Positions 17,577 through 36,836 of a stretch of DNA of 64,000 nt are shown piece after piece (the first letter of the stretch is position 1; each line of letters starts with the position of its first letter). The DNA is from Candidatus Neomarinimicrobiota bacterium. GTDB taxonomy: Bacteria > Fidelibacterota > Fidelibacteria > Fidelibacterales > Fidelibacteraceae. The position numbers and the translations under genes were made by a program. Location of the stretch: contig JAGGVO010000042.1 in NCBI GenBank assembly GCA_021157965.1, forward strand, positions 62,001 through 126,000, read 5' to 3'. The notes beneath the pieces are model-generated. The model searched no databases. It was given only the letters and a program-made list of their open reading frames with translations, and had not been told where the DNA came from.

Positions 17577-19046
17577 TTACATCTTTTTTCGTGATTTATT
17601 TCTCAGCATTTTTTTCAGAGTATCAATTTCCCGGAATTCGTAAAAACGGAAGAGATAAAGAAGCAGCGGAAAGAGGGAAAGAAGGATCAGTTTTGCCAGG
17701 ATAGCCGATAAAAGAGAGAGGGCGGGTAAACATTGTATGGAAATATAAATCAGGGCTGCAGACAGAAACAATTTCCCCATATTCAGCCATTCGTAATGGG
17801 TTTCAAAATATTTTTCACTGAGCCAGGCACTGATACCTGAAGAAAAGAGAAACGAGAGAAGCGTGGCCAGGGCGGCTCCCTGCATTCCCCACCGGGGAAT
17901 CATCAGAAAATTCAGACCGATATTCAGTACAGCCGAGCCGAGAGTAATGTAGGCAATCATGGCTGTTTTAGATGCCATTTGAAGGGTCTGTTTAAAAATA
18001 AACCCCATTCCCCGGATAACCAGAGCCAGCAGAATGGTAGGAATAATGATAGAAGCGGCCAGATATTCATCATAAGTGACTGTCATCAAATTGACAAGAT
18101 CATAGGAAAAAACCGAGACCGCCAGGATAATCCAGAGGAAGACAAAAAGAAAATAATTCAGAAATTTCCTTATAATTCTTCGGATATTGGCAGCTCTGAC
18201 ATGTTTCCATATCATTTGCTGATAGGCATTATTGAACGAACGGATTAAAATAATATCCACAGCATTGGCAATCCGGTAACCGATATCATAAGCACCCACC
18301 ATTTCGAGTGTTGTGAGAAAACCAAGAATATACCGGTCGCCGATATTTAATACCCGGCTTGCTAAGCCCGAAAAAGAAAGAGGAAAGCCAAAACGGATCA
18401 TTTCTTTGAGTGTCACGGGCAAAAAACGGAAAGACATTTGTGACCATACAAAGGGGAGCATAAGAAAAAAAGTAAGCGCCTCCCCCATCAATTGTCCCCA
18501 AAATATGCCTAAGATTCCTTTTTCATATCGTACAATCATCAGGACCGTCACAAGAAGCTGAACTGCAAATTTCAGCACTGCCACAATAACATAGTAGACA
18601 GACTTCTCCCGAATCCGCAGGGTAAAAAGTGGAATCATATTCAGCACGGAAAGGGTAATGATGGCGGCGCTGAATTTAAAATAGATGCCCATAGCCGGGT
18701 TACTGAAAATCCCCCGGGCAAGATATCCGGAAAAAAAATAAAGCGGTAACGTAACCAGAATAACAATCAAAGCAGTAAACGTATATGCCGTAAAAAAAAC
18801 AGCTTTTTTATCCTGTTCACCCTCTTCCAGGTTCATCCACCTGAAAAGAGCATTGGGGAGCCCCAGATGTAAAAACCCCTGGCAAAACTGAATGGAGACA
18901 TCAAAAAGAGAATAAAACCCATAATCGGATATTCTGATCATGGATGTATACAGGGGGAGTAAAATGAGTCCAATCAATTTGGATGAAACATTTCCGATCA
19001 TATAAATGCCGGAATGTTTTGCCATGTATTTCAGGTGGTTTAACAT
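17577..19046 (-). CDS. Polysaccharide / lipid-linked oligosaccharide flippase (Wzx-like, MATE/MVF superfamily)
   Basis: 489 residues with about 12-14 membrane helices and the family opening SGIYMIGNVSSKLIGLILLPLYTSMI, then SDYGFYSLFDV. Proteins of this kind flip undecaprenyl-linked saccharides to the outer leaflet. A second diagnostic stretch is LNIGDRYILGFLTTLEMVGAYDIGYRIA. The C-terminus is very basic (RNKSRKKM). It is the last gene of a minus-strand polysaccharide region and is followed by the glycosidase-like lipoprotein gene 78 bases downstream. Divergent to it lies a sulfotransferase gene. No Wzy-type polymerase is obvious in the window. Confidence 0.88.
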   Translation of the reverse strand: MLNHLKYMAKHSGIYMIGNVSSKLIGLILLPLYTSMIRISDYGFYSLFDVSIQFCQGFLHLGLPNALFRWMNLEEGEQDKKAVFFTAYTFTALIVILVTLPLYFFSGYLARGIFSNPAMGIYFKFSAAIITLSVLNMIPLFTLRIREKSVYYVIVAVLKFAVQLLVTVLMIVRYEKGILGIFWGQLMGEALTFFLMLPFVWSQMSFRFLPVTLKEMIRFGFPLSFSGLASRVLNIGDRYILGFLTTLEMVGAYDIGYRIANAVDIILIRSFNNAYQQMIWKHVRAANIRRIIRKFLNYFLFVFLWIILAVSVFSYDLVNLMTVTYDEYLAASIIIPTILLALVIRGMGFIFKQTLQMASKTAMIAYITLGSAVLNIGLNFLMIPRWGMQGAALATLLSFLFSSGISAWLSEKYFETHYEWLNMGKLFLSAALIYISIQCLPALSLLSAILAKLILLSLFPLLLYLFRFYEFREIDTLKKMLRNKSRKKM

Positions 19047-19156: not shown

Positions 19157-19825
19157 ATGAACATGCTAAACCGCGACAGCCAGGCCGACAGGACACATGT
19201 CTTAATTCTCGGGGCGCCCCGTTCGGGGACATCCATTCTTGCCAGTCTGATCGGAGCACATCCCGATATTGCCCTATGCAGTGAGGATTTCAGCAATACC
19301 TGGACAACTGCAATCGGTAAACCTGTTGTCGGGAACAAACTCTGTGTACCCAATCAAATTCAGCTTACTGCAAAAAAAAATCTGATAACAGAACTCTTGA
19401 AACGCCTGGGAGTTTGGAAACGCTTTCCTTTGTCGTATTATTCTGTCAAAGATTATCTGAAAATCCCGAACCTGAAAATTATATTTATCATCCGTGACCG
19501 GAAGAAAAACGCGGAAAGTATGGCCCGCCGGGGTTCCATTAAACGGTATTTTCTGCTATTCAAGTGGAAACGAAAGCTGAAAGAAAACGAAATCAAGAAA
19601 ATCCTGGATCAGACATACATAACCAAAGAAATTCTGGAAAACCGCGAAAATGTCATGACTATCCGTTATAAAGATTTGATTCGGGAACCGGAAAAAACAT
19701 TGACATCTATTTTCAATTTTCTAAATGTTCCTGTAAAAGATTTACAATCAATCATTAAACAGGGCACCCGTTGGAACTGGATGTATTCAGACAGTTCAAA
19801 AAGTTTAGATACTTCGAAGATTTAA
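19157..19825 (+). CDS. Sulfotransferase-family protein
   Basis: 222 residues from ATG 19157; a second ATG is at 19163 and a TTG at 19148. The PAPS 5'-phosphosulfate loop is GAPRSGTS (residues 19-26), and the 3'-phosphate motif IFIIRDRKKNAESM lies near residue 107. The C-terminal part YKDLIREPEKTLTSIFNFLNV is typical of carbohydrate sulfotransferases. No signal peptide, so it is likely cytoplasmic and would transfer sulfate from PAPS to a sugar precursor. It is the only plus-strand gene in the first 50 kb, overlaps the next sulfotransferase tail-to-tail by 21 bases, and has its own promoter-like element. The acceptor is unknown. Confidence 0.85.
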   Translation: MNMLNRDSQADRTHVLILGAPRSGTSILASLIGAHPDIALCSEDFSNTWTTAIGKPVVGNKLCVPNQIQLTAKKNLITELLKRLGVWKRFPLSYYSVKDYLKIPNLKIIFIIRDRKKNAESMARRGSIKRYFLLFKWKRKLKENEIKKILDQTYITKEILENRENVMTIRYKDLIREPEKTLTSIFNFLNVPVKDLQSIIKQGTRWNWMYSDSSKSLDTSKI

Positions 19826-20794
19826 AACCAGCCGGTTATATACATACCGTACCAGATTTTCTCCCTTTACAGGCCTGTACAAACTCCCTTTCACCGAAAA
19901 AGGCTCATAGTCAAACATTTCAAGTAAAGCCCCATATCGTGTATTGATAATTGATGCTTCCACAGGTGAAATCAATTTTTTCCATTCCGACAGACGGCTG
20001 GAAGAAATACCTGTGAATTTTTCACCAGACGTACTGTTTCCATCCCATAACTTTCCATGAGACGTGGGGTATAAAAGATTCTCCTTAAAAGGTATTTTCA
20101 GCTTTTTACACAACCCTGTAAGTGTTTCCCGGGGAGAAGAAACAAGATCACAGTACCGGATCACGTGATAATCCGGAAGCATTCTTATATTTTTAAGAAG
20201 ATAATAATAGCTGTTGTCCATAGTCTGAATAACCCGGTCAATCTTTGGGAAACGGGTAGTTATATCCTTAAACCGGCGAAGACTCACAATATTGGCATAG
20301 GGATTCCGTACGATATGAATGAAAACAGCTTCGGGAAAAAGATATTTCAATTCCGCGGCAAATTCGGCATGTTCCACAGATTTTTCACAGAGCCATGTAT
20401 CTTCCGGAATATTTTTCCCGTTGTTATACGAGGCATACATTGCATTCCAATAAAGGGTAAAATCCCGTGCTCTGTGTGACACTTCACCGGAAATGTCTGC
20501 CATTTTTTCAACAAAACATGATTCATCAAACAGATCCGGTGTTACTGAATCCGTGAGAGGGTCATCGGCTGTATTGCACCGGAGGATCCATTCCCTGCAC
20601 CGCCGGATAATTTCTTCACGGCTCAGGTTTTGAGCAAACTGCCGTCGGTAATTATAGTGAATTTCATAACCAAAATGCTGAAAGGGGTGGGTTTCCACAG
20701 GCAACACTGTCAAACCGGGATGGCCGTCCAGCAGGCTGCGGACCAGACTCGTCCCGGATTTATGCAAACCAAGAATGAACAGGGGACCTTTCAT
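19805..20794 (-). CDS. Sulfotransferase-family protein
   Basis: 329 residues. The PAPS-binding loop GLHKSGTSL is at residues 9-17 and the 3'-phosphate motif FIHIVRNPYANIVSLRRF lies about 155 residues in, followed by YCDLVSSPRETLTGLCKKLKIPF. No signal peptide or membrane helix is seen, so it is a cytoplasmic enzyme unlike the animal Golgi enzymes. ATG 20794 has GGAGG four bases upstream and overlaps the stop of the upstream glycosyltransferase (ATGA), indicating coupling. It most likely sulfates the glycan made by this locus. Its similarity to the divergent sulfotransferase is limited to the motifs, so they are not recent duplicates. Confidence 0.9.
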   Translation of the reverse strand: MKGPLFILGLHKSGTSLVRSLLDGHPGLTVLPVETHPFQHFGYEIHYNYRRQFAQNLSREEIIRRCREWILRCNTADDPLTDSVTPDLFDESCFVEKMADISGEVSHRARDFTLYWNAMYASYNNGKNIPEDTWLCEKSVEHAEFAAELKYLFPEAVFIHIVRNPYANIVSLRRFKDITTRFPKIDRVIQTMDNSYYYLLKNIRMLPDYHVIRYCDLVSSPRETLTGLCKKLKIPFKENLLYPTSHGKLWDGNSTSGEKFTGISSSRLSEWKKLISPVEASIINTRYGALLEMFDYEPFSVKGSLYRPVKGENLVRYVYNRLVLNLRSI

Positions 20795-21870
20795 TTTTCC
20801 TCCGACAGAAGACCATATTTAATAAACACATCTTTTAAGGCTTTTTCACGGACTTCGAGACTATATTTTTCCTTGAGTTGCCGGAAAAATTGTTTCCGCA
20901 TTGCATCATTTCCGGTATAAAGAGCCTGAATTTTTCGTCTGCCCTCTTCCGGATTATCAAAATCCTCGATTATATAATCCGGAAAACCGTTCACCATTTC
21001 AGGAAGGGCTCCTGCAGAAGATACCAGAGGCAGGGCTCCGTAGGCACAAGCCTCCGCCACGCCCATACCAAAAGATTCAAAACGGGAAAACTGACAGTAA
21101 ACCGACGTCTTTTCATAGTATTCTGAAAGGGTGTCATGTGACTGGGGTGCCAGGACGGTCAGGTTTTCCGGTAAATTTGGTAGACCATCCTTAAAGGTCT
21201 GCTCCATGCCGATAATCATGAAAGGATAGTCCGGATTCATCCGGGCCATCCGGATAAAACGGTCAAACCCTTTAATAAGATAGCGCCGCCGGGTATTGCA
21301 ATATCCCACCGTCAATATCAGTGATTTCTTCGGTGTCCGTTCTTTCAGGCGAACTTCCGGAAATGCAATGGCATTATATATGACACGTCCGGAGTAAGGA
21401 CCCCTTTTTTTTGATTCAGCGGCCGCATAGTCCGAAACCGGTAAAACACAGGCAGCCTTTTTATACAAAAAACACACAATGCGGGAACGAAGGGGGTTCG
21501 TAAACACACCATAATGGTATTCGGGCAGCCAAGTGGTATCATATCCGCCCAGAACCAGAAACACCGGTTTTCGGAAAATAAGTCCCAAAAGCATGGGAAT
21601 CAAAGCATGATAATCGGCAAACCATATAAACAGGGCCCGGCTTCGAAGAATGGGAAGGGGTAACTGAAAAAGTTGTTTCAGCATACTTGCAGCTGTCCGG
21701 AAGCCGGCTGCCGATTTAAATCGACAGACACGAACTTTAAAAAAACGTTGTAAAATATCCACATCCTGAATGATAAAAAAACTCTCGTATTCATAACGGG
21801 GAGCGATAAAACAAAGAGACGGTATCTTTTTGTGGTTTTTCACCTGATTCAGCGGTTTTCTGATATCCAT
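20791..21870 (-). CDS. Glycosyltransferase family 4 (GT-B fold)
   Basis: 359 residues. The C-terminal Rossmann half has ILTVGYCNTRRRYLIKGFDRFIRMA, the nucleotide-binding turn after LTVLAPQSHDTLSEYYEKTSVYCQFS, and the Ex7E-type motif FESFGMGVAEACAYGALPLVSSAGALPEM. This is diagnostic of GT4 retaining transferases. It adds a sugar from a nucleotide donor to a lipid-linked or growing glycan at the inner membrane. A TATAAT (21916-21911) lies upstream on the minus strand. The stop overlaps the sulfotransferase start. Donor and acceptor unknown. Confidence 0.9.
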   Translation of the reverse strand: MDIRKPLNQVKNHKKIPSLCFIAPRYEYESFFIIQDVDILQRFFKVRVCRFKSAAGFRTAASMLKQLFQLPLPILRSRALFIWFADYHALIPMLLGLIFRKPVFLVLGGYDTTWLPEYHYGVFTNPLRSRIVCFLYKKAACVLPVSDYAAAESKKRGPYSGRVIYNAIAFPEVRLKERTPKKSLILTVGYCNTRRRYLIKGFDRFIRMARMNPDYPFMIIGMEQTFKDGLPNLPENLTVLAPQSHDTLSEYYEKTSVYCQFSRFESFGMGVAEACAYGALPLVSSAGALPEMVNGFPDYIIEDFDNPEEGRRKIQALYTGNDAMRKQFFRQLKEKYSLEVREKALKDVFIKYGLLSEEK

Positions 21871-23501: not shown

Positions 23502-23518
23502 GCGTTCAGATCCCGTTG

Positions 23519-24484: not shown

Positions 24485-24496
24485 GTTACCACCCCC

Positions 24497-25543
24497 TTAT
24501 TTAAAAGCATATTCAATGAAACATTCAATTTTGTTCCGGGTATATTTCGTATCATCCGGACTGCCTTTCCACTGCCGGCGCCACGTGGGGCGAATCTTAA
24601 CCGATCCGGCATCTGAATTGTGTACCGTGATTTTATATTCCAGCCAACTGTAGAGATGATCTGTCGTGTTATCCCCGCTGTCCGTTACCTGGCCGTAATC
24701 GAAAAATCCCCGAAAGACACCGGGGCCTGTTTTACCGCGCACACCTATGCGACCGATCCATCCGTCATAAAACTCCTCAATGGTCACAGCAGCTTCACCC
24801 CAAACGGAATATCCGGAGACTTTACCCGACACAACCGCTCCGGCAGTCAAAGGATTGTAATTGGATTTCTTTGTACTCCACAAGACTTGAGGAACAATTT
24901 CCAGAGCCCCCAAATTCAGGGCATAATCTGCTCCAATGGTTATGCCATCGCGGTTTGTAATGGTTGAGTCACCGTCCAGATATACTTCCAGATTTGTGCG
25001 GTTTTCATCCACGGAAAAATAGGCTCTGGCCAGTCCGTCTCCCAACGTTTTATGTACCCTGAAACCGGTGTAGGCATTATTGTTGAAAATCAGGAATGGA
25101 ATATCCACCACTCGTGTGGGATAATAATGAATATCCCAGATTGTGTTTCCACCTTGCGGAATCCGCCCCAGATCAAATCCAAAATCCCCTTTTTTACCGA
25201 CATAAAGCCGGGTAAAATCCACGGAAGGCGATTGGGCTGATCCGTCAGACGAAGCAGAGGGAAGCCCTGAACCACTTCCCATTTTAGACCAGAAAGCCAG
25301 GGAATTATGGGAAAGTTGAATTTTGGCAAAATACCCGTTATTGATGTCCGCATTCAGATTAAGCCGGGCCCTGAACTGCAGATAGGCGTCACCTGTCCGG
25401 CTGTTTATTTTTCCATCACCGTCTTTATTAGTAATCAGATCAAAACGTGGCCGTATCCAGGTGTCTCCACTCAGACTGATTTCAGACCGGGCATTCCCTG
25501 CCAGCATGAGCCCTGCAAGAAATAACAACAACATTCTTATCAT
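24497..25543 (-). CDS. Porin-like outer-membrane beta-barrel protein
   Basis: 348 residues, ATG 25543 with AGGAG seven bases upstream. Signal peptide MIRMLLLFLAGLMLAGNARS. The mature part starts EISLSGDTWIRPRFDLITNKDGDG and continues as amphipathic strands with Asp/Gly turns, ending FIEYAFK with a penultimate Phe as in barrels. The opening resembles alginate-export / porin-like proteins that start with a repeated strand plus D-G-rich loops. It probably lets the substrate of the downstream ABC transporter cross the outer membrane. The gene lies 71 bases after the LysR gene. Confidence 0.75.
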   Translation of the reverse strand: MIRMLLLFLAGLMLAGNARSEISLSGDTWIRPRFDLITNKDGDGKINSRTGDAYLQFRARLNLNADINNGYFAKIQLSHNSLAFWSKMGSGSGLPSASSDGSAQSPSVDFTRLYVGKKGDFGFDLGRIPQGGNTIWDIHYYPTRVVDIPFLIFNNNAYTGFRVHKTLGDGLARAYFSVDENRTNLEVYLDGDSTITNRDGITIGADYALNLGALEIVPQVLWSTKKSNYNPLTAGAVVSGKVSGYSVWGEAAVTIEEFYDGWIGRIGVRGKTGPGVFRGFFDYGQVTDSGDNTTDHLYSWLEYKITVHNSDAGSVKIRPTWRRQWKGSPDDTKYTRNKIECFIEYAFK

Positions 25544-25614
25544 GAGAAATCTCCTCTTTTTTTTCAATTTGAAAGAGTATAGAGAGAAATGAAAGGGGAT
25601 AAAAATCTAAATAT

Positions 25615-26454
25615 TTAATGAGAGGGGGACAGATTATTTAATTTTTCGATAAGTGCCCGGATTATATCCCCGTACCGGGAGGATTCACCGGCTAAAAGCA
25701 AAATATTCCGATGGATCTGATAGGTATCTGAAACAACAATATGAGGATATTGCTCCTGAATGTTTTTCAGATAGGTTTCGTTGATAAAGAGTCCAAGCGG
25801 TTTCTGATTTATCAGGGTAAGCCGGTCTGCGGTTGTACCCATTTCGGCCACAATGTTTACATCTCCGAACTGTTCCAGATAATTCAGAACCACGGTATGA
25901 ATTCCTGAATCCTTCTGATCAATCACCAGGGGGATTTTCCTGATATCATGGCTTAGGGATTGATGGTAGACCAAAACGATGCGTTCATCTTTCAGGGGGA
26001 TTGCATCAATGTGCCGGGGAAGTTCCATATTTACACCGCCAACAATGGCCACATCCGCCTGATGGTCGATGATATTCCGGATGGCTTCATCAGACCGGCA
26101 TGTATACACACGGGGAAAAAGTCTTTTTTCCCGGAGCAGTTCATAAATGGGTTCAAGATAGAGATGGGTGGCCACCGTACTCAGATTTACGGTGAAATCA
26201 TTCATTCCTTCCAATCGGGCCATCAGTTCGTCATGATCCCGGAGTATCCGTTCACAATATTTATAAAAAACCTTGCCCTGGGGTGTAAAATGGTATTCGC
26301 CGTCGTAAGAATACAGGGTTATGTTCAACTCCTGCTGGAGTTTGTTCAAACGATAGCTGATTGTTGGCTGTGATAAATATAAATACCGGGAAACTGCAGA
26401 TGTATTACGTTGTATATAGAGCTGTTTATAAATTTTAAGGTCCAGCAGATCCAT
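25615..26454 (-). CDS. LysR-family transcriptional regulator
   Basis: 279 residues, ATG 26454 with GGGAGGG upstream. The N-terminal winged helix (about 3-62) reads LKIYKQLYIQRNTSAVSRYLYLSQPTISYRLNKLQQELNITLY, read in parts, with the SQPTIS recognition helix. The LysR effector domain follows from about residue 88. It likely controls the porin-ABC operon that directly follows in the same direction, with the effector perhaps being the transported solute. That the regulator is not divergent is somewhat unusual for LysR genes. It could be co-transcribed with the ATP-grasp gene 24 bases upstream. Confidence 0.93.
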   Translation of the reverse strand: MDLLDLKIYKQLYIQRNTSAVSRYLYLSQPTISYRLNKLQQELNITLYSYDGEYHFTPQGKVFYKYCERILRDHDELMARLEGMNDFTVNLSTVATHLYLEPIYELLREKRLFPRVYTCRSDEAIRNIIDHQADVAIVGGVNMELPRHIDAIPLKDERIVLVYHQSLSHDIRKIPLVIDQKDSGIHTVVLNYLEQFGDVNIVAEMGTTADRLTLINQKPLGLFINETYLKNIQEQYPHIVVSDTYQIHRNILLLAGESSRYGDIIRALIEKLNNLSPSH

Positions 26455-26478
26455 CAATCCCTCCCGGGTTTGAAAGGC

Positions 26479-27528
26479 TTATTTTACTTCGTCAGAATCA
26501 TAAAACACCTGATCATAATAACGGACACTTTGCCGGGTAGTCCGGAGATTTTTTTGAATCTCCGTAAGTTCTTCAAGAGAAATAAGTCCAAGCTCATGTT
26601 TAACACCAGCCCAGGGAATGTTAAAATTTTCCTGATGGACAAAGGTAGAGACCCGTGGATTGATTTCCATGAGTTTGCCTCCCTTGAACTGAATATTAAT
26701 AAAATAGTCATACTCCAGGCGGTGAACAATATCCCGTGCATATTCCATATATTCCGGTGCATCCTGGTTTCTGAAAAACATGGCCAGACCTGCTTTCATG
26801 GCTTCCCGGGTTTTTGTAAAGCCCAACAAAACCTTCCCGTTCCGGCAATAACAATCCACGGTAATTTCTGTCCCCTCAAGAAATTCAGATACAATCAAAT
26901 CAGGAAAACGTGCTGCTTGTCTCAGAATCTCTTCACATTCCTCAAGAGTAAAAGTGGTATCTTCAATCCGCTTCTTCAACAGCATATTCAGCCGGTCGGT
27001 TCCGGCTTCGAGGATTCGGAATCCCCGGGATCCCTTACTTACAGCCGGTTTGAAGCAGACTCTTTTATCAGGATAGCCCAAACCTAAAACGGCTTTTCTG
27101 AAGTCATTCACGGTGTTCACGGTCCGTGTTTCGGGCAGGGGGACCGAGCTCTCTTTAAAAAAGTCATTCATGGCAGATTTGCTGTCACAGGGAATGGCCG
27201 ATTCGGTTTTGGGGATCATGATGGGAAAACCTGCCTTGCGAAAATCATCCCGGAGGGGACTCAAAGGCATCACATCCGAGGAGCTTTGGGGCAGAATCAG
27301 ATCCACTTTCTCTTTTCGTGCAATATGGAGGATTGTTTCAGGATAGGCAGGATCCGTCCCGGCGGGGACAGGATAAAACACATCACTGAAAAAGCGTCCT
27401 GACGCCAGGGGATTCATATCCGTCCCGATGATTTCAACCGGTCTTTCCCCATGTTCTTTCAGTGCCCGGATCATGGTAACACCTCCGGGACAACCGACTG
27501 TCGTTAACAAAATACGGATAAGTTTCAT
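26479..27528 (-). CDS. ATP-grasp ligase (carbamoyl-phosphate-synthase/PylC-like)
   Basis: 349 residues. An N-terminal pre-ATP-grasp Rossmann part (ILLTTVGCPGGVTMIRALKEHG; IIGTDMNPLASGRFFSDVFYPVP) leads into the ATP-grasp fold. Its motifs are CFKPAVSKGSRGFRIL, LIVSEFLEGTEITVDCYCRNG and GGKLMEINPRVSTF, with the Mg-binding Glu and Asn in MEINPR. Such enzymes join a carboxylate to an amine through an acyl-phosphate. In surface-glycan clusters they have been proposed to attach amino acids to sugars or make carbamoyl-type precursors, but the substrate here is unknown. It follows the PIG-L gene by 10 bases. Confidence 0.88.
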   Translation of the reverse strand: MKLIRILLTTVGCPGGVTMIRALKEHGERPVEIIGTDMNPLASGRFFSDVFYPVPAGTDPAYPETILHIARKEKVDLILPQSSSDVMPLSPLRDDFRKAGFPIMIPKTESAIPCDSKSAMNDFFKESSVPLPETRTVNTVNDFRKAVLGLGYPDKRVCFKPAVSKGSRGFRILEAGTDRLNMLLKKRIEDTTFTLEECEEILRQAARFPDLIVSEFLEGTEITVDCYCRNGKVLLGFTKTREAMKAGLAMFFRNQDAPEYMEYARDIVHRLEYDYFINIQFKGGKLMEINPRVSTFVHQENFNIPWAGVKHELGLISLEELTEIQKNLRTTRQSVRYYDQVFYDSDEVK

Positions 27529-27538
27529 TGATTTCCTG

Positions 27539-28171
27539 CTATATTATGTATCGTATCACTTCAAAACATTCGGCATAATCACAACCGATCTGCACACCCC
27601 GTGTGGTGGCAAGACTCATAATAAATTCTTTTGAAGCATACTTTCGCATCTTCTGGGAATTGTATGCATCCAAAGCATAAATTTTCTTTTCAATGTGGCG
27701 CTTTTCCAGCCGGATAAAGGAGCGGGTTTCAAAATTGATATGATTCCATGGAATTTCATACGCCAAAATAGTGGTCTGCTTGAAAGCCCGTTGCCCTTCC
27801 ATGGCGACTGTATTGTGATCCTGGTGCAAATCGTGAGGGGAAGGCATAAATACAAGATCGGGGTTCAGTTCCCGCTTTAAGCGTACCATTTCTTCCAGCA
27901 AATCCTGGCGGACATAGTTAAGTTTCCGAACGGTAAACCCGTAAATCAGAAGATTTTCCGCTTTGATACCGAGGCGTTTTGTGGCTTCTTTGACTTCAAT
28001 TTCGAGAATGTTTTCCGGCATGCCCGGAGGGACTGATTCCTTGGCGGTTGAAAAAGCGGCATAATATATATCCGCATCGTCTTCCAGAAATTTGGCAATA
28101 CTCCCCCCACATCCAAATTCTCCGTCATCGGTATGGGGTGCCAGAATCAGTATACGTTTTGCTGTCTTCAT
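27539..28171 (-). CDS. PIG-L/LmbE-family deacetylase
   Basis: 210 residues, ATG 28171 with GAGGAA upstream. The metal-site motif PHTDDGEFGCGGS occurs near residue 12 and the second motif PSPHDLHQDHN near residue 107, giving the His-Asp-Asp...His zinc ligands of this family. Members remove acetyl groups from GlcNAc residues, for example GlcNAc-phosphatidylinositol or lipid-linked sugars. Here it lies between AsnB and an ATP-grasp ligase in a polysaccharide locus, so N-deacetylation of an amino sugar in the glycan is likely. A free amine could then be sulfated or acylated. Confidence 0.93.
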   Translation of the reverse strand: MKTAKRILILAPHTDDGEFGCGGSIAKFLEDDADIYYAAFSTAKESVPPGMPENILEIEVKEATKRLGIKAENLLIYGFTVRKLNYVRQDLLEEMVRLKRELNPDLVFMPSPHDLHQDHNTVAMEGQRAFKQTTILAYEIPWNHINFETRSFIRLEKRHIEKKIYALDAYNSQKMRKYASKEFIMSLATTRGVQIGCDYAECFEVIRYII

Positions 28172-28179
28172 GGTTTTCC

Positions 28180-30120
28180 TCAATTCATGTAGGATTCCAA
28201 ATCAAAGTGACGCTCTGCAAAAGCATCACTGTCAATAAACATCTTTTGCCACACCGCCAGTCCCATAACCACCCACAGAAAATTGTAATGCCAGCGGAGA
28301 CGGGGATGGGGCGGCGTGTCCAGTATTTTGCGAATGTATTCGTAATTAAACAAGCCCTGCTTTTCTACAAAGTCCCGGGTTAATACCCTTTCGCATACAT
28401 TCTTCAGGTCTTTTTTGTACTGCAGGTAGGGGTTGACTGTAAACCCCCATTTCTTTTTCCGGGTAATTTTTTCCGGTAAATAAGGTTTCATGGCTTCACG
28501 GAACAGGTCTTTGGCCCGGTTCCCCTTCATTTTCAATCCGGCAGGAATAGAAAATCCAAACTTCACTAAATCGAGATCCAGAAAGGGCACCCTCTCCTCA
28601 ACAGAATGGCTCATACTCATGCGGTCTTCCACCAAAAGGTAGTCGTTAACCATCTTCGTATGAAATTCAGTAAAGAGCACCTGATCCAGTGCAGACATGT
28701 GATTCACCTTTTGAAAAAAGGGGTCAAAAGCTTTCCGGACTCCTAATGAGTCCTCTTTCATTTTTTGAGCCATGTCCCGGTGATAGATCCGGTCATACAT
28801 GGCGTTGTCAAAGTCCCAAACATTTCTCAGGATCAGATAATATTTTTCTATTTGTCCCAGGGCCAGAAGCATCTGAATGCCACGTCGGTATTCATCCAGC
28901 CGCAAGACCCCTGTTTTCTGTTCCATTCTGAAGAGAATCCGGGATTTGAAATCCCAAAATTTTTTCATCCATCCGGGGATTCGGTCATGAAGATGGTTCA
29001 TTGGATAGATAAACCGGTGAATATCATAGCCTGCCAGCAGTTCATCCCCGCCGAGTCCGCCAAGGACCACTGATACATGGGGTTTGACAAAAGCGGACAT
29101 GTTGAAACCCTGAAGGAGGTTGATTTTCGGTTCCTCGGCATGCCACAGGACTTCCGGGAACATTTTCAGGGGTTCCATACTCAGGCTCAGGGTATGATGA
29201 TCGGTCTTGAAGTGACGGGCCACCCGCTCAGCATCGGGAAATTCATCGGTGGGTTCATTGAAACCGAGTGTAAATGTTTTAATATCCGGGACCCCCAGTT
29301 CTGACATCTTCTGGACAATCACGGATGAGTCCATGCCGCCGCTCAGGTAAACCCCTATGGGGACGTCGGAAATCAGTTGGCGTTTGACAGCCTGCCGCAG
29401 GAGTTCATGTAACTGGTCTGCAGCCTCTTTTTCGTTCATACCGTCCCGGATTTCAGGTGTCAGTTCCCAATACCGGTGTATATTGATTTGTTTATTTCGA
29501 TACACAAGATAGTGTGCCGGGGGAAGACGATAAATACCTTTAAAAAGGGTCTGGTCATTTTGAGTATAGCGCAAATTCAGATGTGTATGAAGGGACTTAA
29601 GATTTAATTCCCGGGGAACGGAGGGATGCAGGAGCAGGGGTTTCTGCTCTGAGGCAAAGGCAAAAAGACCGTTCTGATGAATATAGTGAAGGGGTTTGAT
29701 CCCAAAATGATCCCGTACCAGAATGAGGGAATCCTGTCTCTGATCCAGGATAACAAAGGCAAAAATGCCGTTCAGGCGGTGAAAAAAGTCTGTCCCCCAA
29801 CTTTCATAACCATGGACAAGTATTTCCGTATCCGATTCCGTGTAAAAATGGTGCCCAAGGTTTTTCAGTTCTTCGCGGATTTCCTTGTAGTTGTAGATTT
29901 CGCCGTTATAAATAACGGCAATGGAGCGATCCTCGTTAAAAATAGGCTGGTTCCCGGTTTTCAGATCAATAATGGCCAGACGCCGGTGTCCCAGGGTGAC
30001 ATCACCGTGCCTGTATATTGATTCGGCATCCGGTCCCCGGTGACGGATAAGGTCCAGCATCTGCTTAAAACGATTTGGGGGAGTTCCTCCCGCTTCAACT
30101 GTCCCTAAAATACCACACAT
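28180..30120 (-). CDS. asnB: Asparagine synthase-type glutamine amidotransferase (AsnB-like)
   Basis: 646 residues. The N-terminal Ntn domain begins MCGILG with nucleophile Cys2 and contains RHRGPDAES and HRRLAIIDL. The C-terminal synthase domain has the PP-loop LSGGMDSSV near residue 260. Classical AsnB makes asparagine. In polysaccharide loci close relatives (for example WbpS) amidate uronic acids to uronamides. The neighbouring uronyl epimerase favours the second role here, but a metabolic role is not excluded. The ATG overlaps the epimerase stop (TGATG). Confidence 0.92.
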   Translation of the reverse strand: MCGILGTVEAGGTPPNRFKQMLDLIRHRGPDAESIYRHGDVTLGHRRLAIIDLKTGNQPIFNEDRSIAVIYNGEIYNYKEIREELKNLGHHFYTESDTEILVHGYESWGTDFFHRLNGIFAFVILDQRQDSLILVRDHFGIKPLHYIHQNGLFAFASEQKPLLLHPSVPRELNLKSLHTHLNLRYTQNDQTLFKGIYRLPPAHYLVYRNKQINIHRYWELTPEIRDGMNEKEAADQLHELLRQAVKRQLISDVPIGVYLSGGMDSSVIVQKMSELGVPDIKTFTLGFNEPTDEFPDAERVARHFKTDHHTLSLSMEPLKMFPEVLWHAEEPKINLLQGFNMSAFVKPHVSVVLGGLGGDELLAGYDIHRFIYPMNHLHDRIPGWMKKFWDFKSRILFRMEQKTGVLRLDEYRRGIQMLLALGQIEKYYLILRNVWDFDNAMYDRIYHRDMAQKMKEDSLGVRKAFDPFFQKVNHMSALDQVLFTEFHTKMVNDYLLVEDRMSMSHSVEERVPFLDLDLVKFGFSIPAGLKMKGNRAKDLFREAMKPYLPEKITRKKKWGFTVNPYLQYKKDLKNVCERVLTRDFVEKQGLFNYEYIRKILDTPPHPRLRWHYNFLWVVMGLAVWQKMFIDSDAFAERHFDLESYMN

Positions 30121-31130
30121 CAGATCCGGCCCAGTTTTTTTAATGCTTTCACTTTATCTCCATACATCCGGATAATATGATCCATACGGTCATACTGTGA
30201 GAACTGTTCCCTGAAGCTTTTTAATTCCTGTCGGCCGGAGAGGTTTTCAAGGAGCAAGAGCTGGCTCATAATCAGCCGGTAATATCCCACCGAACAGGGG
30301 TCGGTTTTAGGATAATGGTCCAGATCGCACAGGTTAAAACGAACCCAATAACCCATATCATAGTCAGGCAGTCGGGTGATCAGGGTTTGAATTCCTGCAT
30401 CAAAAGCATTTTTCGCCCTGATTTTATCAGCCGGATAGAGATCTTCCGGCAGAGCCCGGTATGCATCAAAAAGGCCTAAAAGGGAAAAATTATGCCCATC
30501 CAGGACCCGTGTTGGTTTTGCCGCCACATACTCTTCGTAAAAAGGAAGTCCTTCATGTAAATCTGCCACAACCCCGCCATCCCGGATATCCACAAAGAAA
30601 AGATCAAGGATTCCGGGGATCAACTCCAGATATTTTGCATTGTTTGTGAGTTGCCAGGCCCGTAAAAGTACAGAGAGAGCCCGGCTTTGTGTAAAAGCGG
30701 ATTTCCAGGGCTTTGTAACCCGGTATTCCGGTTTTGGGATATCTGTGAGCCAGTAAACACCGGTATCATCCCGTTGAGCCTTTTCAAGAAACCAATCGGC
30801 AATACGGAGAAAATGCCCGGAAACGGCAGGGTCCCCGCTTTGAACAAAACGGTTAAAACGGGCCAGTGCATACTGCCCTATGGAGATGGGATAATAGTGT
30901 GTGCGCGGGGATTCCACATCGATATAAGCACTGTTTATGGGGATTCCATTTTCATCGAACCCGCTAATTAGCCTGTTTAATAATTTGGGGTCATCCTCAA
31001 AAAGAAAATAAAATTCCCCCAGTTTTTCTGAAAAAAGGTCCGTTGATATCGCAAAAGGCGGGGATTTTTTCACAATATCCCGCCGGAATTTATTCAGCAT
31101 GAATGCCATTTTTTTCAGACGCTTAGCCAT
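30120..31130 (-). CDS. D-glucuronyl C5-epimerase family protein
   Basis: 336 residues. Its most telling segments are YPISIGQYALARFNRF (80-95), FYEEYVAAKPTRVLDGHNFS (197-215) continuing LLGLFDAY, and VGYYRLIMSQLLLL near 295. They align, from my memory, with the C-terminal domain of animal glucuronyl C5-epimerase, including its active-site Glu-Glu-Tyr. That enzyme converts D-glucuronate to L-iduronate inside heparan sulfate. The protein is about half the size of the animal form and has no signal peptide or membrane anchor, so it is probably cytoplasmic. It overlaps the upstream GT4 gene by 8 bases and asnB downstream. The exact uronic acid is unknown. Confidence 0.82.
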   Translation of the reverse strand: MAKRLKKMAFMLNKFRRDIVKKSPPFAISTDLFSEKLGEFYFLFEDDPKLLNRLISGFDENGIPINSAYIDVESPRTHYYPISIGQYALARFNRFVQSGDPAVSGHFLRIADWFLEKAQRDDTGVYWLTDIPKPEYRVTKPWKSAFTQSRALSVLLRAWQLTNNAKYLELIPGILDLFFVDIRDGGVVADLHEGLPFYEEYVAAKPTRVLDGHNFSLLGLFDAYRALPEDLYPADKIRAKNAFDAGIQTLITRLPDYDMGYWVRFNLCDLDHYPKTDPCSVGYYRLIMSQLLLLENLSGRQELKSFREQFSQYDRMDHIIRMYGDKVKALKKLGRI

Positions 31131-32412
31131 GGCGAATCACCTCATGCATAATATCAGACAATCTGCGGACATTTTCCGATGTTTCGTACTGTTTCAGGGC
31201 TTCGCCGGAAGGAAGTGACAGGACGGGATTTTTTTCGAACGCATTAAAGCACCGGGTTAAAAAGTGTGCAATGCCCTGAATATCCTTTTCCGGGAAAACA
31301 CTGCCGCTATCCGTTCCGGCCACCATGGATTCAATCACACCGCCCTTGCCTCCGATGACGAGAATCGGTTTTCTCATGGCAAGATAATCATACATTTTTG
31401 CCCCGATACTCTTGTCGGAATAGCCGCTTTGTGCCTGAATTTTCAGGAGGAGGGATGCCGATCGGGCTTCTTCCATCATCCTGTCATGGGGCAAATACGG
31501 TTCAAAAGCTGCAGGGACCGGCGAAGTATGTTCAATGTGTGTCTTGTGGGCATCATAAACCTTTCCGATAAACCGGAGGCGCATGATATCCAGCATTTTA
31601 TCAGGCAAAAGCTGAAGTGCCTTCAGCAGGGGCTCGGGATCCTGAAATTTACTCAGCGTGCCTGTATACATGATGGTAAAGACTGACGAGGCTTTTGCCG
31701 ACGCATTCAACCGTGTAAAGCCATTGTGGATAACATAATAACAATTTTCTGCTTTCTGTTTAAACATATCCACCAGACCGGGGCTCACGGTTATCACGGC
31801 AGAGGCTTTTCTCAGAACCTTCATTTCATAACGGTGATTTAAGCGTCCGGCAAGGAGCGTGCGATTCAGATCCTTTTCCCAGAAAGCTTCTGTCCAGGGA
31901 TCCCGTAAATCGGCAATCCAGGGGAGTCTGAAGAGTCGTGCCAGTTTGCCTGCACCGATTTGCAGGCTGTGAGGCGGTGATGAACTTAAAATCAAATCCG
32001 GTTTTTCCCGGAGGATAATCCGGCGGCCTGATTGTTTCAAAAACGGATTCCACCCGACCCTGGCATCGGGAATAAAAAAATTGGCCCGGATCCATCGGGA
32101 GAGTTTTTGACTCAGTGATTCATCTTCATCCCGGCTAAGTACGTAAGTGGGAATTTTATCCTCTTTTTCTTTTCCCGTAATCCGCTTGTACACTCCAAAA
32201 GGCTCCACTGTTTTTGTGCGGAAAACCTTTAAGTCCCGGGGAATTCCCCGCCCCAGTCCCGGATCCAGGGCGGGATAATCGCCGTGCTTAACGGTAAGCA
32301 CTAAAGGTTCCCATCCATATTCAGGTAAAAGCTGCACCCATTTAACCAGGCGTTGTACACCGGGCCCGCCGGCCGGGGGCCAGTAATATGTGATGATCAA
32401 AACCTTAGGCAT
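31123..32412 (-). CDS. Glycosyltransferase family 4 (WcaI/WbuB-like)
   Basis: 429 residues, ATG 32412 inside the end of the YfhO-like gene. The N-terminus VLIITYYWPPAGGPGVQRLVKW is a classic GT4 acceptor-domain start. WIADLRDPWTEAFW and, in the C-terminal half, VFTIMYTGTLSKFQDPEPLL and SIGAKMYDYLAMRKPILVIG follow. GT4 enzymes transfer sugars with retention from nucleotide donors at the cytoplasmic face. It overlaps the epimerase gene by 8 bases, so the two are expressed together. The donor is not known; a uronic acid or hexosamine would suit the epimerase. Confidence 0.92.
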   Translation of the reverse strand: MPKVLIITYYWPPAGGPGVQRLVKWVQLLPEYGWEPLVLTVKHGDYPALDPGLGRGIPRDLKVFRTKTVEPFGVYKRITGKEKEDKIPTYVLSRDEDESLSQKLSRWIRANFFIPDARVGWNPFLKQSGRRIILREKPDLILSSSPPHSLQIGAGKLARLFRLPWIADLRDPWTEAFWEKDLNRTLLAGRLNHRYEMKVLRKASAVITVSPGLVDMFKQKAENCYYVIHNGFTRLNASAKASSVFTIMYTGTLSKFQDPEPLLKALQLLPDKMLDIMRLRFIGKVYDAHKTHIEHTSPVPAAFEPYLPHDRMMEEARSASLLLKIQAQSGYSDKSIGAKMYDYLAMRKPILVIGGKGGVIESMVAGTDSGSVFPEKDIQGIAHFLTRCFNAFEKNPVLSLPSGEALKQYETSENVRRLSDIMHEVIRHG

Positions 32413-34861
32413 GGGAATCCGGTTCAAATCGTGGTTTCCGCTCAAGCCACCATCCTCCGCCGATCAAAATCCACACGATGATGACACCTATCCAGCTCAC
32501 GGCAAGTCCTCGACGGTACGCCGGCGGATCAAAGTACAAATGGAGGGACCCCTTTCCGGCAGGGAGTTCAATACCACGTAGCATATAGTTGACCCGGTAT
32601 ATCGGCAACTTTTTTCCCTGAAATTCAGCAATCCATCCCTCATCGTAATACATTTCGGAAATAACCACGAACTGTTTTTCTGAAAGATTGACGGAAAAGG
32701 TAAGGGAATTGGGTGTTTGTGATTCCAGGCTGACCGATCCATTACCACTGTACTCCCCACCGGCATCCAGAGCATAGGCAAGGATGGCAGGATTAAAATC
32801 TTCACGATTCATGCGCATGACGGCATCTTCCCAGGAATCCGTCTTTTCCAGCCTTTTAATCAGCCAGGCTTTCGGTAAAGCCCGGGTATTTTCATAAAGG
32901 ATTTCCTTCCGGTTCTGATCTACAGCAAGGGGCCTGAGAAAGAGGTGTTCCAGCTGACCGGATGCGATGATATACCGGCCGTTTAACATGTTGACCACAT
33001 TCCAGTTCAGACGGGCCGGGCCGGACCCCTCAAAGAGAAGATGATCCATTGCATCCTGAATCGTCTGAAGTTTGATGGCACTATACCCGTTAATAATGGG
33101 ATACCAATAGGCATAATGATTATCCTGAAATCCCTGCCCCACAACCAGAGCCCGGTACCCTTCAGGGGCTTTTTCCAGAACCCGGGTGATGTCTGTATCC
33201 GAAAACTGACGCCGCTCCATGACCTTTTTATTTCCCAGAGTAATTTGATTATAGGCTTTTCCGGTAATAATGCCCAGTTCCACCGAAACAAGTCCCAGCA
33301 GAATCAGGACAAGGGAAAATTTTGCCAACTTTTTAAAGCGGTACGCGGTAATGGCCGATCCGGCAAGCACGGTAATCCATAAGGCCCGGATCAATTCACC
33401 GGTAAGCACCTCTTTGCGAACGGTTTTGAGGATCCCCAGGGTTTCACCGGGATACCGGGAGACTTCACCCGGAGCCAGGTACGATAACTGTCCCCGGATC
33501 AAAAGCAGAATGAGTATAAAAGCCACACCGCCACCGAAGACAACAGGCTCAAGATAATCTTTTCCCTGATCCCGCGGAGAGAAAAGGGCTTTTAATCCAT
33601 AACCCGCCAGAATCAGCAGCGTTATGAAAGTCATATTAACAATCATGACCGGAACCCGGAATTTGGAAAAGTAAGGGAAGTAATAGAAAAAGAGTTTGTA
33701 AAGAGGCATAAAGTGGTGGCCGAATCCCAGAAGAACTGTAAAAACGGCAAAAATCGTCAGGGATTTCACCTGACCAAGTTTATAATACCGGATGATACCG
33801 ATCAGTGCCAGTAAAAAGAGAAGAAAACCCATGGAGTCATAACTTTGGGTAAAGGGCATATCGCCCCAATAGCCGGGGAGTCTTTGTCCTTTCAGACGGG
33901 GATAGGCATTACCGTCATATTTTTCCGAAGACATGCCACCGAAAAAGCGGGGAAAGAAGAAATTCAGGATTTCTTTCGGTGCAAGAGACCAGCGTGTGGC
34001 ATAATCCAGGCTGACTCCTTTGGAACGGGTTGCCGAGGTCTGCTCCTGTCCGATTTGAAGGGGATTGCCGCCACGGGTGGAATGGGGAGTGTATTCATGC
34101 AGACTGATAAATGGCTGGGCAGAGACTAAGACCGTTAAAATAACAGCCACAACGATTTTCAGAGCCAGGTCTCCGAAGAGCCGGTACTCCTTGCGAAAGA
34201 GAAGCCGCAAAACAGGTATCAGGTAGAGAAACAGAAGGATCAGGATTCCGTAAAAAACAACCTGTATATGCTGGGTTCGCACCATCCAGGAAAACATGAG
34301 TGCAAAAAAACCGACGGTATACCATTTCCGTTTATCCATCAAGAGCTGAAAACTCAGAATCAGCCAGGGCATCAACATAAAAGCCCGGAGTTTGCTATAG
34401 TGACCCACATGAATCAGGGACTGCCAGTGAGGCAGCAGAATGAAACCAAGGGCCACAATCACGGCGGCATACCAGGGGATTTTCCGGGATCTCAGCAGGG
34501 CAAACATTCCCAGGCCTCCCAGAAGAAAATACCAGAAATAAAGGTATGTAAACCGCCCCAGAAATTTGACAAGTGTATCGGGATGGAGCAGGGGCGGTGT
34601 AATGCGGTGATAGGTGGGCATGCCACAGAAAAAGCCGGGATTCCACAAGGCTTTATCTCCGCTTTCCTTTTCCCATTCCAGATAATTACGGGTACTGGCA
34701 ACAGATGCCACTGAATCCACACCCAGGGGACGGACATTTTCAAAAATGAATTTTGCATACATGATAATCAGGGGAATCAGCAAAACAATCACTGCCGCCA
34801 GAAGAGTTTTTCTCCCGTTCAACATTTCCCATGCTGCCGGTTGCACTTTTTTATCAGACAT
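32405..34861 (-). CDS. YfhO-family polytopic membrane protein (GT-C-like)
   Basis: 818 residues with about 12-13 membrane helices, a large extracytoplasmic part after residue 540, and a last helix near 785-805. The family features LGVDSVASVASTRNYLEWEKESGDKALWNPGFFCGMPTY near the start and a later LPIYRVNYMLRGIELPAGKGSLHLYFDPP are typical of YfhO. In Firmicutes YfhO works with a CsbB-like enzyme that makes undecaprenyl-phosphate sugar, and transfers that sugar outside the membrane. A matching GtrB/CsbB-type transferase is encoded two genes upstream. Confidence 0.85.
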   Translation of the reverse strand: MSDKKVQPAAWEMLNGRKTLLAAVIVLLIPLIIMYAKFIFENVRPLGVDSVASVASTRNYLEWEKESGDKALWNPGFFCGMPTYHRITPPLLHPDTLVKFLGRFTYLYFWYFLLGGLGMFALLRSRKIPWYAAVIVALGFILLPHWQSLIHVGHYSKLRAFMLMPWLILSFQLLMDKRKWYTVGFFALMFSWMVRTQHIQVVFYGILILLFLYLIPVLRLLFRKEYRLFGDLALKIVVAVILTVLVSAQPFISLHEYTPHSTRGGNPLQIGQEQTSATRSKGVSLDYATRWSLAPKEILNFFFPRFFGGMSSEKYDGNAYPRLKGQRLPGYWGDMPFTQSYDSMGFLLFLLALIGIIRYYKLGQVKSLTIFAVFTVLLGFGHHFMPLYKLFFYYFPYFSKFRVPVMIVNMTFITLLILAGYGLKALFSPRDQGKDYLEPVVFGGGVAFILILLLIRGQLSYLAPGEVSRYPGETLGILKTVRKEVLTGELIRALWITVLAGSAITAYRFKKLAKFSLVLILLGLVSVELGIITGKAYNQITLGNKKVMERRQFSDTDITRVLEKAPEGYRALVVGQGFQDNHYAYWYPIINGYSAIKLQTIQDAMDHLLFEGSGPARLNWNVVNMLNGRYIIASGQLEHLFLRPLAVDQNRKEILYENTRALPKAWLIKRLEKTDSWEDAVMRMNREDFNPAILAYALDAGGEYSGNGSVSLESQTPNSLTFSVNLSEKQFVVISEMYYDEGWIAEFQGKKLPIYRVNYMLRGIELPAGKGSLHLYFDPPAYRRGLAVSWIGVIIVWILIGGGWWLERKPRFEPDSHA

Positions 34862-34879: not shown

Positions 34880-35914
34880 TTATTTATAGTAATTCCGGAC
34901 AAATCCTGTAAATGCATCCTGTTTTAAAATGACCCGTTTATAATAAGCCTGCATAAAACCCATTCCGTAGGCAAAAATCTGAGTCGGCACAATCACAGGG
35001 ATGTAGAGGAACACCCGGACATCCTTATATTTAATAATCCCGTGAAGGCCCATGGTAAAAAGAGCAAGAATACCCAGAGCCGGAAGGGGCCAGAAAAAGC
35101 CGGGTGCCAGCAAAAACAGTAAAAGAGCCAACGCCGTAAACAGGGTTCCTGCCGCCGGCAGAAAATGGACCGGTTCAAGCATCTTGTTATCGATTTTATA
35201 CAGATTGATCCGGGCTACACCCCAGTTAAAAACCTGTTTGAAAAATTTTTTCACGGAAGTGCGCCGTTTATGATAGACGATGGCCTCATCCACTTTAATC
35301 ACCGGTTCGCCTGTTGCCAGGATACGGTTGCTGAACTCGATATCCTGGCCATGCCGGAGGTCATTCATCCCGCCGATTTTATCCACGATATCGGCCCGGA
35401 CACCCATATTGAAGCTTCGGGGATAGTATCTGGACAATTTTTTTTTTGAATGTCCCCGGATTCCTCCCGTTGTGAGAAAAGACGTCATACTGTAATCAAT
35501 GGCTTTCTGCAGGGGAGAAAAATCGGCCCGTACCCTGTCCGGACCGCCAAAACCGGCCACATCCTGTTTGGACACGGCATCGGCATAAGCCTGAAGCCAG
35601 CGGGGATGGGCAATGCAATCACTATCCACAAAAACAAAATATTTCCCTTTTGCGTGTTTCATGCCCAGATTTCGCGCTGCGCCGGGACCCTGGTGATCCT
35701 GTCGGATAAAGCGAAGGTTCAGGGATGTTTCTTTACTGAAAGTTTCAACAAATTCCTGTGTTTTATCTGTTGACCCATCATCCACAACAAGGACTTCAAA
35801 ATCCCGGACGGGAAACACCTGGTCACGAAGGGATAAAAGCAGTTCCCGGATTTCAGACAGGCGGTTATATGTAGGGATAATGACCGTAAAAAGATAGAGA
35901 TAATCATTCGTCAT
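34880..35914 (-). CDS. Glycosyltransferase family 2 with C-terminal membrane helices
   Basis: 344 residues. Start chosen at ATG 35914, five bases after AGGAGG; a GTG at 35920 and ATG at 35917 also exist. GT-A motifs: TVIIPTYNRLSEIRELL, VLVVDDGSTD, RNLGMKHAKGKYFVFVDSDC with the DxD-type metal site DSD, and later GGMNDLRHGQDIEFSNR. Two or three hydrophobic helices follow residue 235. It probably elongates a lipid-linked oligosaccharide at the inner membrane. Its start overlaps the end of the adjacent GT2 gene. Confidence 0.9.
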   Translation of the reverse strand: MTNDYLYLFTVIIPTYNRLSEIRELLLSLRDQVFPVRDFEVLVVDDGSTDKTQEFVETFSKETSLNLRFIRQDHQGPGAARNLGMKHAKGKYFVFVDSDCIAHPRWLQAYADAVSKQDVAGFGGPDRVRADFSPLQKAIDYSMTSFLTTGGIRGHSKKKLSRYYPRSFNMGVRADIVDKIGGMNDLRHGQDIEFSNRILATGEPVIKVDEAIVYHKRRTSVKKFFKQVFNWGVARINLYKIDNKMLEPVHFLPAAGTLFTALALLLFLLAPGFFWPLPALGILALFTMGLHGIIKYKDVRVFLYIPVIVPTQIFAYGMGFMQAYYKRVILKQDAFTGFVRNYYK

Positions 35915-36836
35915 CATCACCTCCTGCTTTCCCTTTATTTTTCCTGAACTGGTACACCAGCATTTCGCCGATCAGTCCCATGGAGACAAGCTGAATTCCC
36001 AGAATCAGGAGTAAAATTCCCAAAAGCAGCATAGCCACATGGGTTTGAAAGGGTTCATGATAGGCATATTTCAAAACAAGGACCCACACCTCAACCCCAA
36101 CACCCACAATTACGGACAGGAGTCCCAACATCCCGAAAAAGTGCATAGGCCTCAGGGTGAAACGGGCCAGAAAAAGGACAGTAATCAAATCAAAAAAACC
36201 TTTAAATATGCGGCCGACACCATATTTACTTTTTCCTGATGTCCGGGGGTGGTGGGTTACGGGAATTTCTGTCACACGGAATCCTTCCATTTTGGCCAGG
36301 ACGGGAATGTAACGGTGAAGTTCTCCATAGAGGCTGATGGATTGTACCACTTCTTTTCGGTATGCCTTCAGACCGCAGTTGAAATCATGGATATGGATAC
36401 CGGTCAAGAGGCTGGTGGTTTTATTAAAGAGTTTACTGGGCAGGGTTTTATTCAGGGGGTCATGGCGGACTTTTTTCCAACCGGATACCATATCCCAGCC
36501 TTCTTTCAGTTTGACAAGAAGTCTGGGAATCTCTTCGGGATCATCCTGCAGATCCCCGTCCATGGTGATTACATACCGACCTTTCACCTGACGAAAACCG
36601 GCCTGTAATGCTGCTGCCTTCCCCTTATTCCTCCTGAAATGGATGACTGACACATTTTCAAAATCTTTTGTCAGAGTGTCCAGTATCTCAGGAGTATTAT
36701 CCGTTGATCCGTCGTTCACAAAAAGAATTTCACCCTGAAGGTTTTTCGATTTCAGCACAGTGAAAATTTTTTCAGTCAGGGTTTTGACGGTCCCCTCTTC
36801 ATTCAGGACCGGTATGACAAGGGAAACATCAATCAT
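35904..36836 (-). CDS. GtrB/CsbB/DPM1-like glycosyltransferase (polyprenyl-phosphate sugar synthase)
   Basis: 310 residues. The GT2 domain has VSLVIPVLNEEGTVKTL, ILFVNDGSTDNTPEIL, GRYVITMDGDLQDDPEEIP and FNCGLKAYRKEVVQ, the set typical of dolichol- or undecaprenyl-phosphate sugar synthases. Two C-terminal membrane helices (about 228-255 and 263-290) match GtrB/CsbB topology. It should make an undecaprenyl-phosphate monosaccharide that is later used outside the membrane, with the YfhO-type protein as candidate user. It overlaps the TPR lipoprotein gene by 8 bases. Confidence 0.92.
   Translation of the reverse strand: MIDVSLVIPVLNEEGTVKTLTEKIFTVLKSKNLQGEILFVNDGSTDNTPEILDTLTKDFENVSVIHFRRNKGKAAALQAGFRQVKGRYVITMDGDLQDDPEEIPRLLVKLKEGWDMVSGWKKVRHDPLNKTLPSKLFNKTTSLLTGIHIHDFNCGLKAYRKEVVQSISLYGELHRYIPVLAKMEGFRVTEIPVTHHPRTSGKSKYGVGRIFKGFFDLITVLFLARFTLRPMHFFGMLGLLSVIVGVGVEVWVLVLKYAYHEPFQTHVAMLLLGILLLILGIQLVSMGLIGEMLVYQFRKNKGKAGGDDDE

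Follow-up and report, generated by a model that had tools for sequence, protein, structure and literature searches.

What does a short epimerase related to animal glucuronyl C5-epimerase (GLCE) act on when its gene lies between those of a glycosyltransferase and a putative sugar amidotransferase? The window analysed here, a 64,000-nucleotide stretch of a Marinimicrobia genome, carries what its gene content indicates is a Wzx-type glycan locus (Table 1). The 5′ end of the epimerase gene, which starts with ATG, overlaps a GT4 gene at 31123-31130, and a TGATG at 30120 is common to the epimerase and AsnB genes; an earlier note on this DNA had placed the three genes in one operon on the basis of both overlaps, which we confirm.

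Table 1. Features of the glycan locus, in window coordinates.
Feature	Position	Strand	Evidence
Wzx-type flippase (Polysacc_synt)	17577..19046	-	PF01943, 1.8e-19
Sulfotransferase (Sulfotransfer_3)	19805..20794	-	PF13469, 1.5e-24
Second GT4-type glycosyltransferase	20791..21870	-	PF00534, 1.4e-13
ATP-grasp ligase	26479..27528	-	PF15632, 1.1e-16
PIG-L type de-N-acetylase	27539..28183	-	PF02585, 1.5e-16
AsnB/WbpS-like amidotransferase, predicted uronate-to-uronamide enzyme, intact Cys2 (MCG) and SGGMDS loop	28180..30120	-	Sequence motifs, profiles
Short C5-epim_C (GLCE-type) epimerase, 336 aa, D/F active-site variant	30120..31130	-	PF06662, 2.1e-32; Foldseek GLCE, 1e-9
Y283 codon (human Y578, general base)	30282..30284	-	55/55 conserved
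F265 codon (human Y560, double-tyrosine motif)	30336..30338	-	Y in 45/45 outside the clade, first set
D211 codon (human N510)	30498..30500	-	N in 45/45 homologues outside the clade, first set
E200 codon (human E499, proton donor)	30531..30533	-	55/55 conserved
GT4-type glycosyltransferase, conserved upstream partner, 8-base overlap with epimerase start	31123..32445	-	Pfam; synteny
YfhO-like membrane protein (probable GT-C)	32405..34861	-	PF09586, 1.2e-8
GT2 glycosyltransferase (GT2a)	34880..35920	-	PF00535, 7.8e-34
GT2 polyprenyl-phosphate glycosyltransferase-like (GT2b)	35904..36836	-	PF00535; NF007986, 1.5e-57

The translated epimerase contains the segments YPISIGQYALARFNRF, YEEY (198-201) and YYRLIMSQLLLL that had first drawn attention to it, and matches Pfam PF06662 (C5-epim_C) with 112.6 bits against a gathering score of 23.3; a search of NCBIfam gave no match. 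In a phmmer alignment with the human GLCE chain 6hzz, residues 61-102 correspond to chain residues 105-142 and residues 106-313 to 314-518, with a chain-to-protein numbering offset of 90 derived from N510 in the alignment. By these blocks the protein is without human GLCE residues ~233-403, the beta-sandwich, and the AlphaFold model has neither a beta-hairpin nor a beta-sandwich domain. Described earlier as about the C-terminal domain alone, the protein is by this alignment larger than that, because the N-terminal segment also matches GLCE and YPISIGQY, which in GLCE stands before the sandwich in an N-terminal helical-domain segment, is retained. No hydrophobic N-terminal segment is present (maximum 19-residue Kyte-Doolittle mean near the N-terminus, 0.7), in line with the export signal having been reported missing, and from this the protein is apparently cytoplasmic. 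It is under purifying selection, with dN/dS in the window lineage of 0.08 for the epimerase and 0.06 for AsnB, which rules out a pseudogene or a decaying enzyme. The locus is found near-identical in ‘Marinimicrobia bacterium 46_43’ (epimerase identity 89%). Elsewhere in the genome there is a second, weak C5-epim_C match (G000:C55:15764-16141; L191:3493-5295), to which PF07221 (GlcNAc 2-epimerase) matches better and whose protein bears a T9SS sorting domain.

The AlphaFold2 model of the epimerase, made from a 16-row alignment, has a pLDDT of 91.6 and a pTM of 0.91. The first 8 Foldseek matches in the PDB are all human or zebrafish GLCE chains (E 1e-9 to 1e-8), which superpose on the model over ~220 columns with an rmsd of 2.5-2.7 Å. 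The protein is a member of the PF06662 superfamily, and its model has the GLCE alpha-barrel fold. In GLCE, barrel and sandwich form the two sides of the cleft that holds the substrate (PMC12350261), so that the window epimerase, which has no sandwich, is missing one wall of it.

The catalytic residues of GLCE are E499, Y500, N510, Y560 and Y578 (PMC13308652), of which Y578 is the base and E499 the acid (PMC12834895), and Y578/Y560 form the double-tyrosine motif common to GLCE, DS-epi1 and lyases (PMC8006597). Their equivalents in the window epimerase, from hhalign and a multiple alignment, are E200, Y201, D211, F265 and Y283, the hhalign alignment being gap-free between F265 and Y283. The check that the earlier note proposed, alignment of the active-site Glu and Tyr residues, therefore comes out as expected for the acid and the base, E200 and Y283, but the note had overlooked that two of the five catalytic positions are changed, N510 to D and Y560 to F. 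A first set, 55 sequences that included the human protein and distant bacterial members, has D and F at these positions (D/F) in 10 and N and Y (N/Y) in 45. Extending the comparison to 124 rows shows more variation at the N510 position among distant members (N, D, S), with Phe at the Y560 position nearly restricted to one clade, hereafter the D clade; N to D thus arises repeatedly, and it is the D/F pair that is specific. With the fold and the acid/base pair retained, the protein likely works like a C5-epimerase. It has in common with human and zebrafish GLCE (PDB 6hzz, 6i01, 6i02, 4pw2, 4pxq) the alpha-barrel fold, the YPIxIxQY and YEEY segments and the equivalents of E499 and Y578, but is not GLCE (EC 5.1.3.12) in the strict sense, because its domain make-up and two catalytic positions are different; it also differs in its missing secretion signal and in being encoded, together with GT4 and AsnB, in an operon for an oligosaccharide.

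The D clade has 13 members, 12 of them D/F and one D/Y (L233, which keeps the Tyr), drawn from two families of Marinimicrobia and from several Bacteroidota. It is monophyletic with a support of 100/96 in a tree built without both columns (100/97 in an earlier tree). Each of the 13 has an intact, WbpS-like AsnB gene 0-50 bp downstream, intactness having been read from Cys2 and the SGGxDS loop in the first eight and from Cys2 in all 13; five members (L192, L193, L233, L234 and L235) were added after the pattern was spotted. An AsnB gene directly downstream is found in none of 33 close N/Y relatives, one of which (L011) is on a contig that stops right after the gene. In the operons of L012 and L144, an active-type AsnB lies upstream of the N/Y epimerase, and the distant N/Y members L200 and L239 adjoin AsnB-family genes. 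Six distant D-type members (L203, L207, L211, L212, L121, L123) have no AsnB within ~1.4 kb, and a rule that N to D always means AsnB is rejected as too strong on their account. The link between D/F and AsnB has a single evolutionary origin, one event that was retained rather than many independent ones; the AsnB tree itself is too poorly resolved to be used for dating the linkage. A GT4 gene is directly upstream of the epimerase in most close relatives, but the GT4 tree does not track D/F (4 changes), which rejects D/F as a marker of a GT4 lineage and indicates AsnB as the correlate.

At the downstream position, 8 of the 33 close N/Y relatives encode an AsnB-like protein that is without Cys2 and in which TxGQDSR replaces SGGxDS. 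This family of ~620 aa, found directly 3′ of N/Y epimerases (L008:8990-10849, L014:846-2729, L015:8993-10864 and L017:8662-10527; also L132, L151 and L152, with a copy in L195 cut by the contig end), has no Pfam match above cut-off and is related to AsnB by hhalign (98.6%) and weak TIGR01536 matches. Its members may form amides with a different amine; a model of its fold was too poor for use (pLDDT 56). The window sulfotransferase has a 36% homologue near an N/Y epimerase in L147.

Bacterial members of the family had been thought few, but PF06662 matches occur in 27 of 245 genomes of the window’s phylum, 20 of 396 in the phylum of a Bacteroidales genome (G251) and 40 of 125 in that of a Cloacimonadota genome (G252). 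Within one genus, what lies at this locus, flanked by YfhO and Wzx, differs from genome to genome. The window genome (G000), G004 and G005 have GT4, a D/F epimerase, AsnB, PIG-L and ATP-grasp in that order; G001 has a GT4′, an N/Y epimerase and a Wzx′, without AsnB; and G002 has a GT4′, an epimerase remnant and then Wzx. By this comparison the cassette is exchanged and dispensable. Flanked by intact GT4 and Wzx genes, the remnant (G002:C6:50498-51478, inside L168) is interrupted by nine or ten in-frame stops. In the window lineage, the glycan locus also holds genes for a LysR-type regulator, an NMT1-type binding protein and an ABC transporter (21949-26457), absent from the corresponding place in G001 and G002. 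Other arrangements include that of genus g2 of the window’s family (L129, L131, L132, L136, L137), where the epimerase follows PGA_cap and DUF819 genes and has no GT4 neighbour, and a 660-aa protein in which a polysaccharide deacetylase domain (PF01522) is fused to C5-epim_C (L194:10368-12350), which recalls the heparan biosynthesis order of deacetylase, then epimerase.

WbpS and WbqG, of the AsnB family, are reported to make uronamides from uronic acids (PMC7468200). The AsnB neighbour has in common with WbpS, WbqG and PGN_1234 the Cys2, the SGGMDS loop and similarity to TIGR03108 (E 1.6e-132), but its 443.3 bits are below the curated cut-off of 816.9. PF06662 epimerases are not mentioned alongside the loci of these enzymes in PMC7468200, and the window operon has PIG-L and ATP-grasp genes in place of the WbpA/B/D/E, VimE (CE4) and VimA of the Wbp and Vim systems. 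The genome has 55 matches to TIGR04183 (T9SS type A sorting domains), an abundant T9SS cargo; that the locus makes the linking sugar of T9SS A-LPS was considered, and assessed by sorting-domain counts only. A TuaD-like UDP-glucose dehydrogenase, its gene cut by a contig end, makes UDP-GlcA plausible.

The reading that we favour, with a probability of roughly 0.6, is that the protein is a cytoplasmic C5-epimerase consisting of the catalytic core only and acting on a lipid-linked uronic acid, that AsnB amidates, and that D/F was selected together with the AsnB pathway. GT4, or one of the GT2 enzymes, would add a D-uronic acid to an undecaprenyl-linked oligosaccharide; since GT4 enzymes are retaining, a substrate other than beta-D-GlcA is conceivable. 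The epimerase would then invert C5 through Y283 as base and E200 as acid to give the L-hexuronic form, AsnB would amidate the carboxyl group, and Wzx would flip the oligosaccharide for extension or transfer outside. In this scheme we infer the epimerase reaction, the lipid-linked nature of the substrate, the amidation by AsnB of the residue that is epimerised, and the sequence in which the steps occur. Action before flipping, on an undecaprenyl-linked oligosaccharide, is suggested by the apparent cytoplasmic location together with the coupling to a glycosyltransferase and the Wzx gene in the locus. A counterpart is the archaeal GlcA C5-epimerase Agl32 of Halobacterium salinarum, a single helical domain whose target, in its own system, is a short lipid-linked glycan that has yet to cross the membrane (PMC13308652). 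Agl32, going by its description, is without the GLCE catalytic residues, whereas the window epimerase retains the acid/base pair.

In the favoured reading the D211/F265 pair would have been selected for in connection with the pathway that AsnB takes part in, and its simplest cause would be that an amide, not a carboxylate, is met at that epimerase site. If N510 and Y560 hold the carboxylate in GLCE, roles that we draw from PMC13308652, PMC8006597 and inference, N to D and Y to F would suit a carboxamide, with an acceptor gained for the NH2 and one donor fewer. A more specific proposal, which we hold as a tentative possibility, is that AsnB amidates first, the D211/F265 pocket binds CONH2 and the protein is a hexuronamide-specific C5-epimerase whose product is an L-hexuronamide; an acceptor would replace a donor at one position and one donor would be lost at the other. 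A hexuronamide C5-epimerase activity was not found in the literature searched.

The alternative that survives best, though we think it doubtful, is an ordinary uronate C5-epimerase that takes a different sugar, such as GalA, ManA or an N-acetylated uronic acid, with its carboxylate free, D/F reflecting sugar stereochemistry or ring pucker and AsnB amidating later or on another residue. It is consistent with the two N/Y epimerases paired with an active-type AsnB, with the recurrence of N to D in distant members without AsnB nearby and with a second, UDP-ManNAcA-dehydrogenase-like enzyme encoded in the genome, but taken alone it leaves unexplained both the immediate AsnB linkage (13/13 in the D clade, 0/33 in close N/Y relatives) and the presence of Cys-less AsnB-like proteins in that position of N/Y loci. 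Less probable by far is that the D/F protein lost epimerisation with Y560 and N510 and is now a binding, scaffold or lyase-like protein of the glycan pathway. Small changes in the double-tyrosine region can switch lyase and epimerase, as argued in PMC8006597, and two of the five positions are changed, but the acid and base are invariant, the dN/dS is low and the D/Y form is nested in the clade. We regard it as improbable, still more so, that the substrate is a nucleotide-activated uronic acid (a UDP-sugar) and not a lipid-linked chain; the small size, solubility and apparently cytoplasmic location of the protein, and its lack of the sandwich lining the cleft in GLCE, would fit such a substrate, but GLCE and the DS-epimerases act on polymer, Agl32 works on a lipid-linked tetrasaccharide, requiring sugars on either side (PMC13308652), and the gene is coupled to a glycosyltransferase, not to UDP-sugar enzymes. 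An (alpha/alpha)6 2-epimerase of the AGE type, or a glycosidase, mis-assigned to PF06662 is hardly credible: AGE-type enzymes do appear from Foldseek rank 9 (E ~1e-4 or worse), but with an rmsd of ~6-13 Å behind GLCE structures at 2.5 Å, and the GLCE motifs align, so that the superposition asked for at the outset supports the GLCE assignment.

The literature searched names a single characterised GlcA C5-epimerase from bacteria, RED65_08024 of Bermanella marisrubri (PMC4432689, PMC13308652), an enzyme of the GLCE kind to which we liken the window epimerase by description. The window operon points to likely partners, namely GT4, AsnB and Wzx. The two changed active-site residues and the predicted amide-forming neighbour suggest an epimerase variant adapted to an amidated sugar of a surface glycan. 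With so tight a link between the two substitutions and the neighbouring amidotransferase, a single pair of enzymes would be enough to test this substrate hypothesis, and a small, soluble, sandwich-free catalytic core could aid the study of how GLCE-type epimerases choose their substrates.
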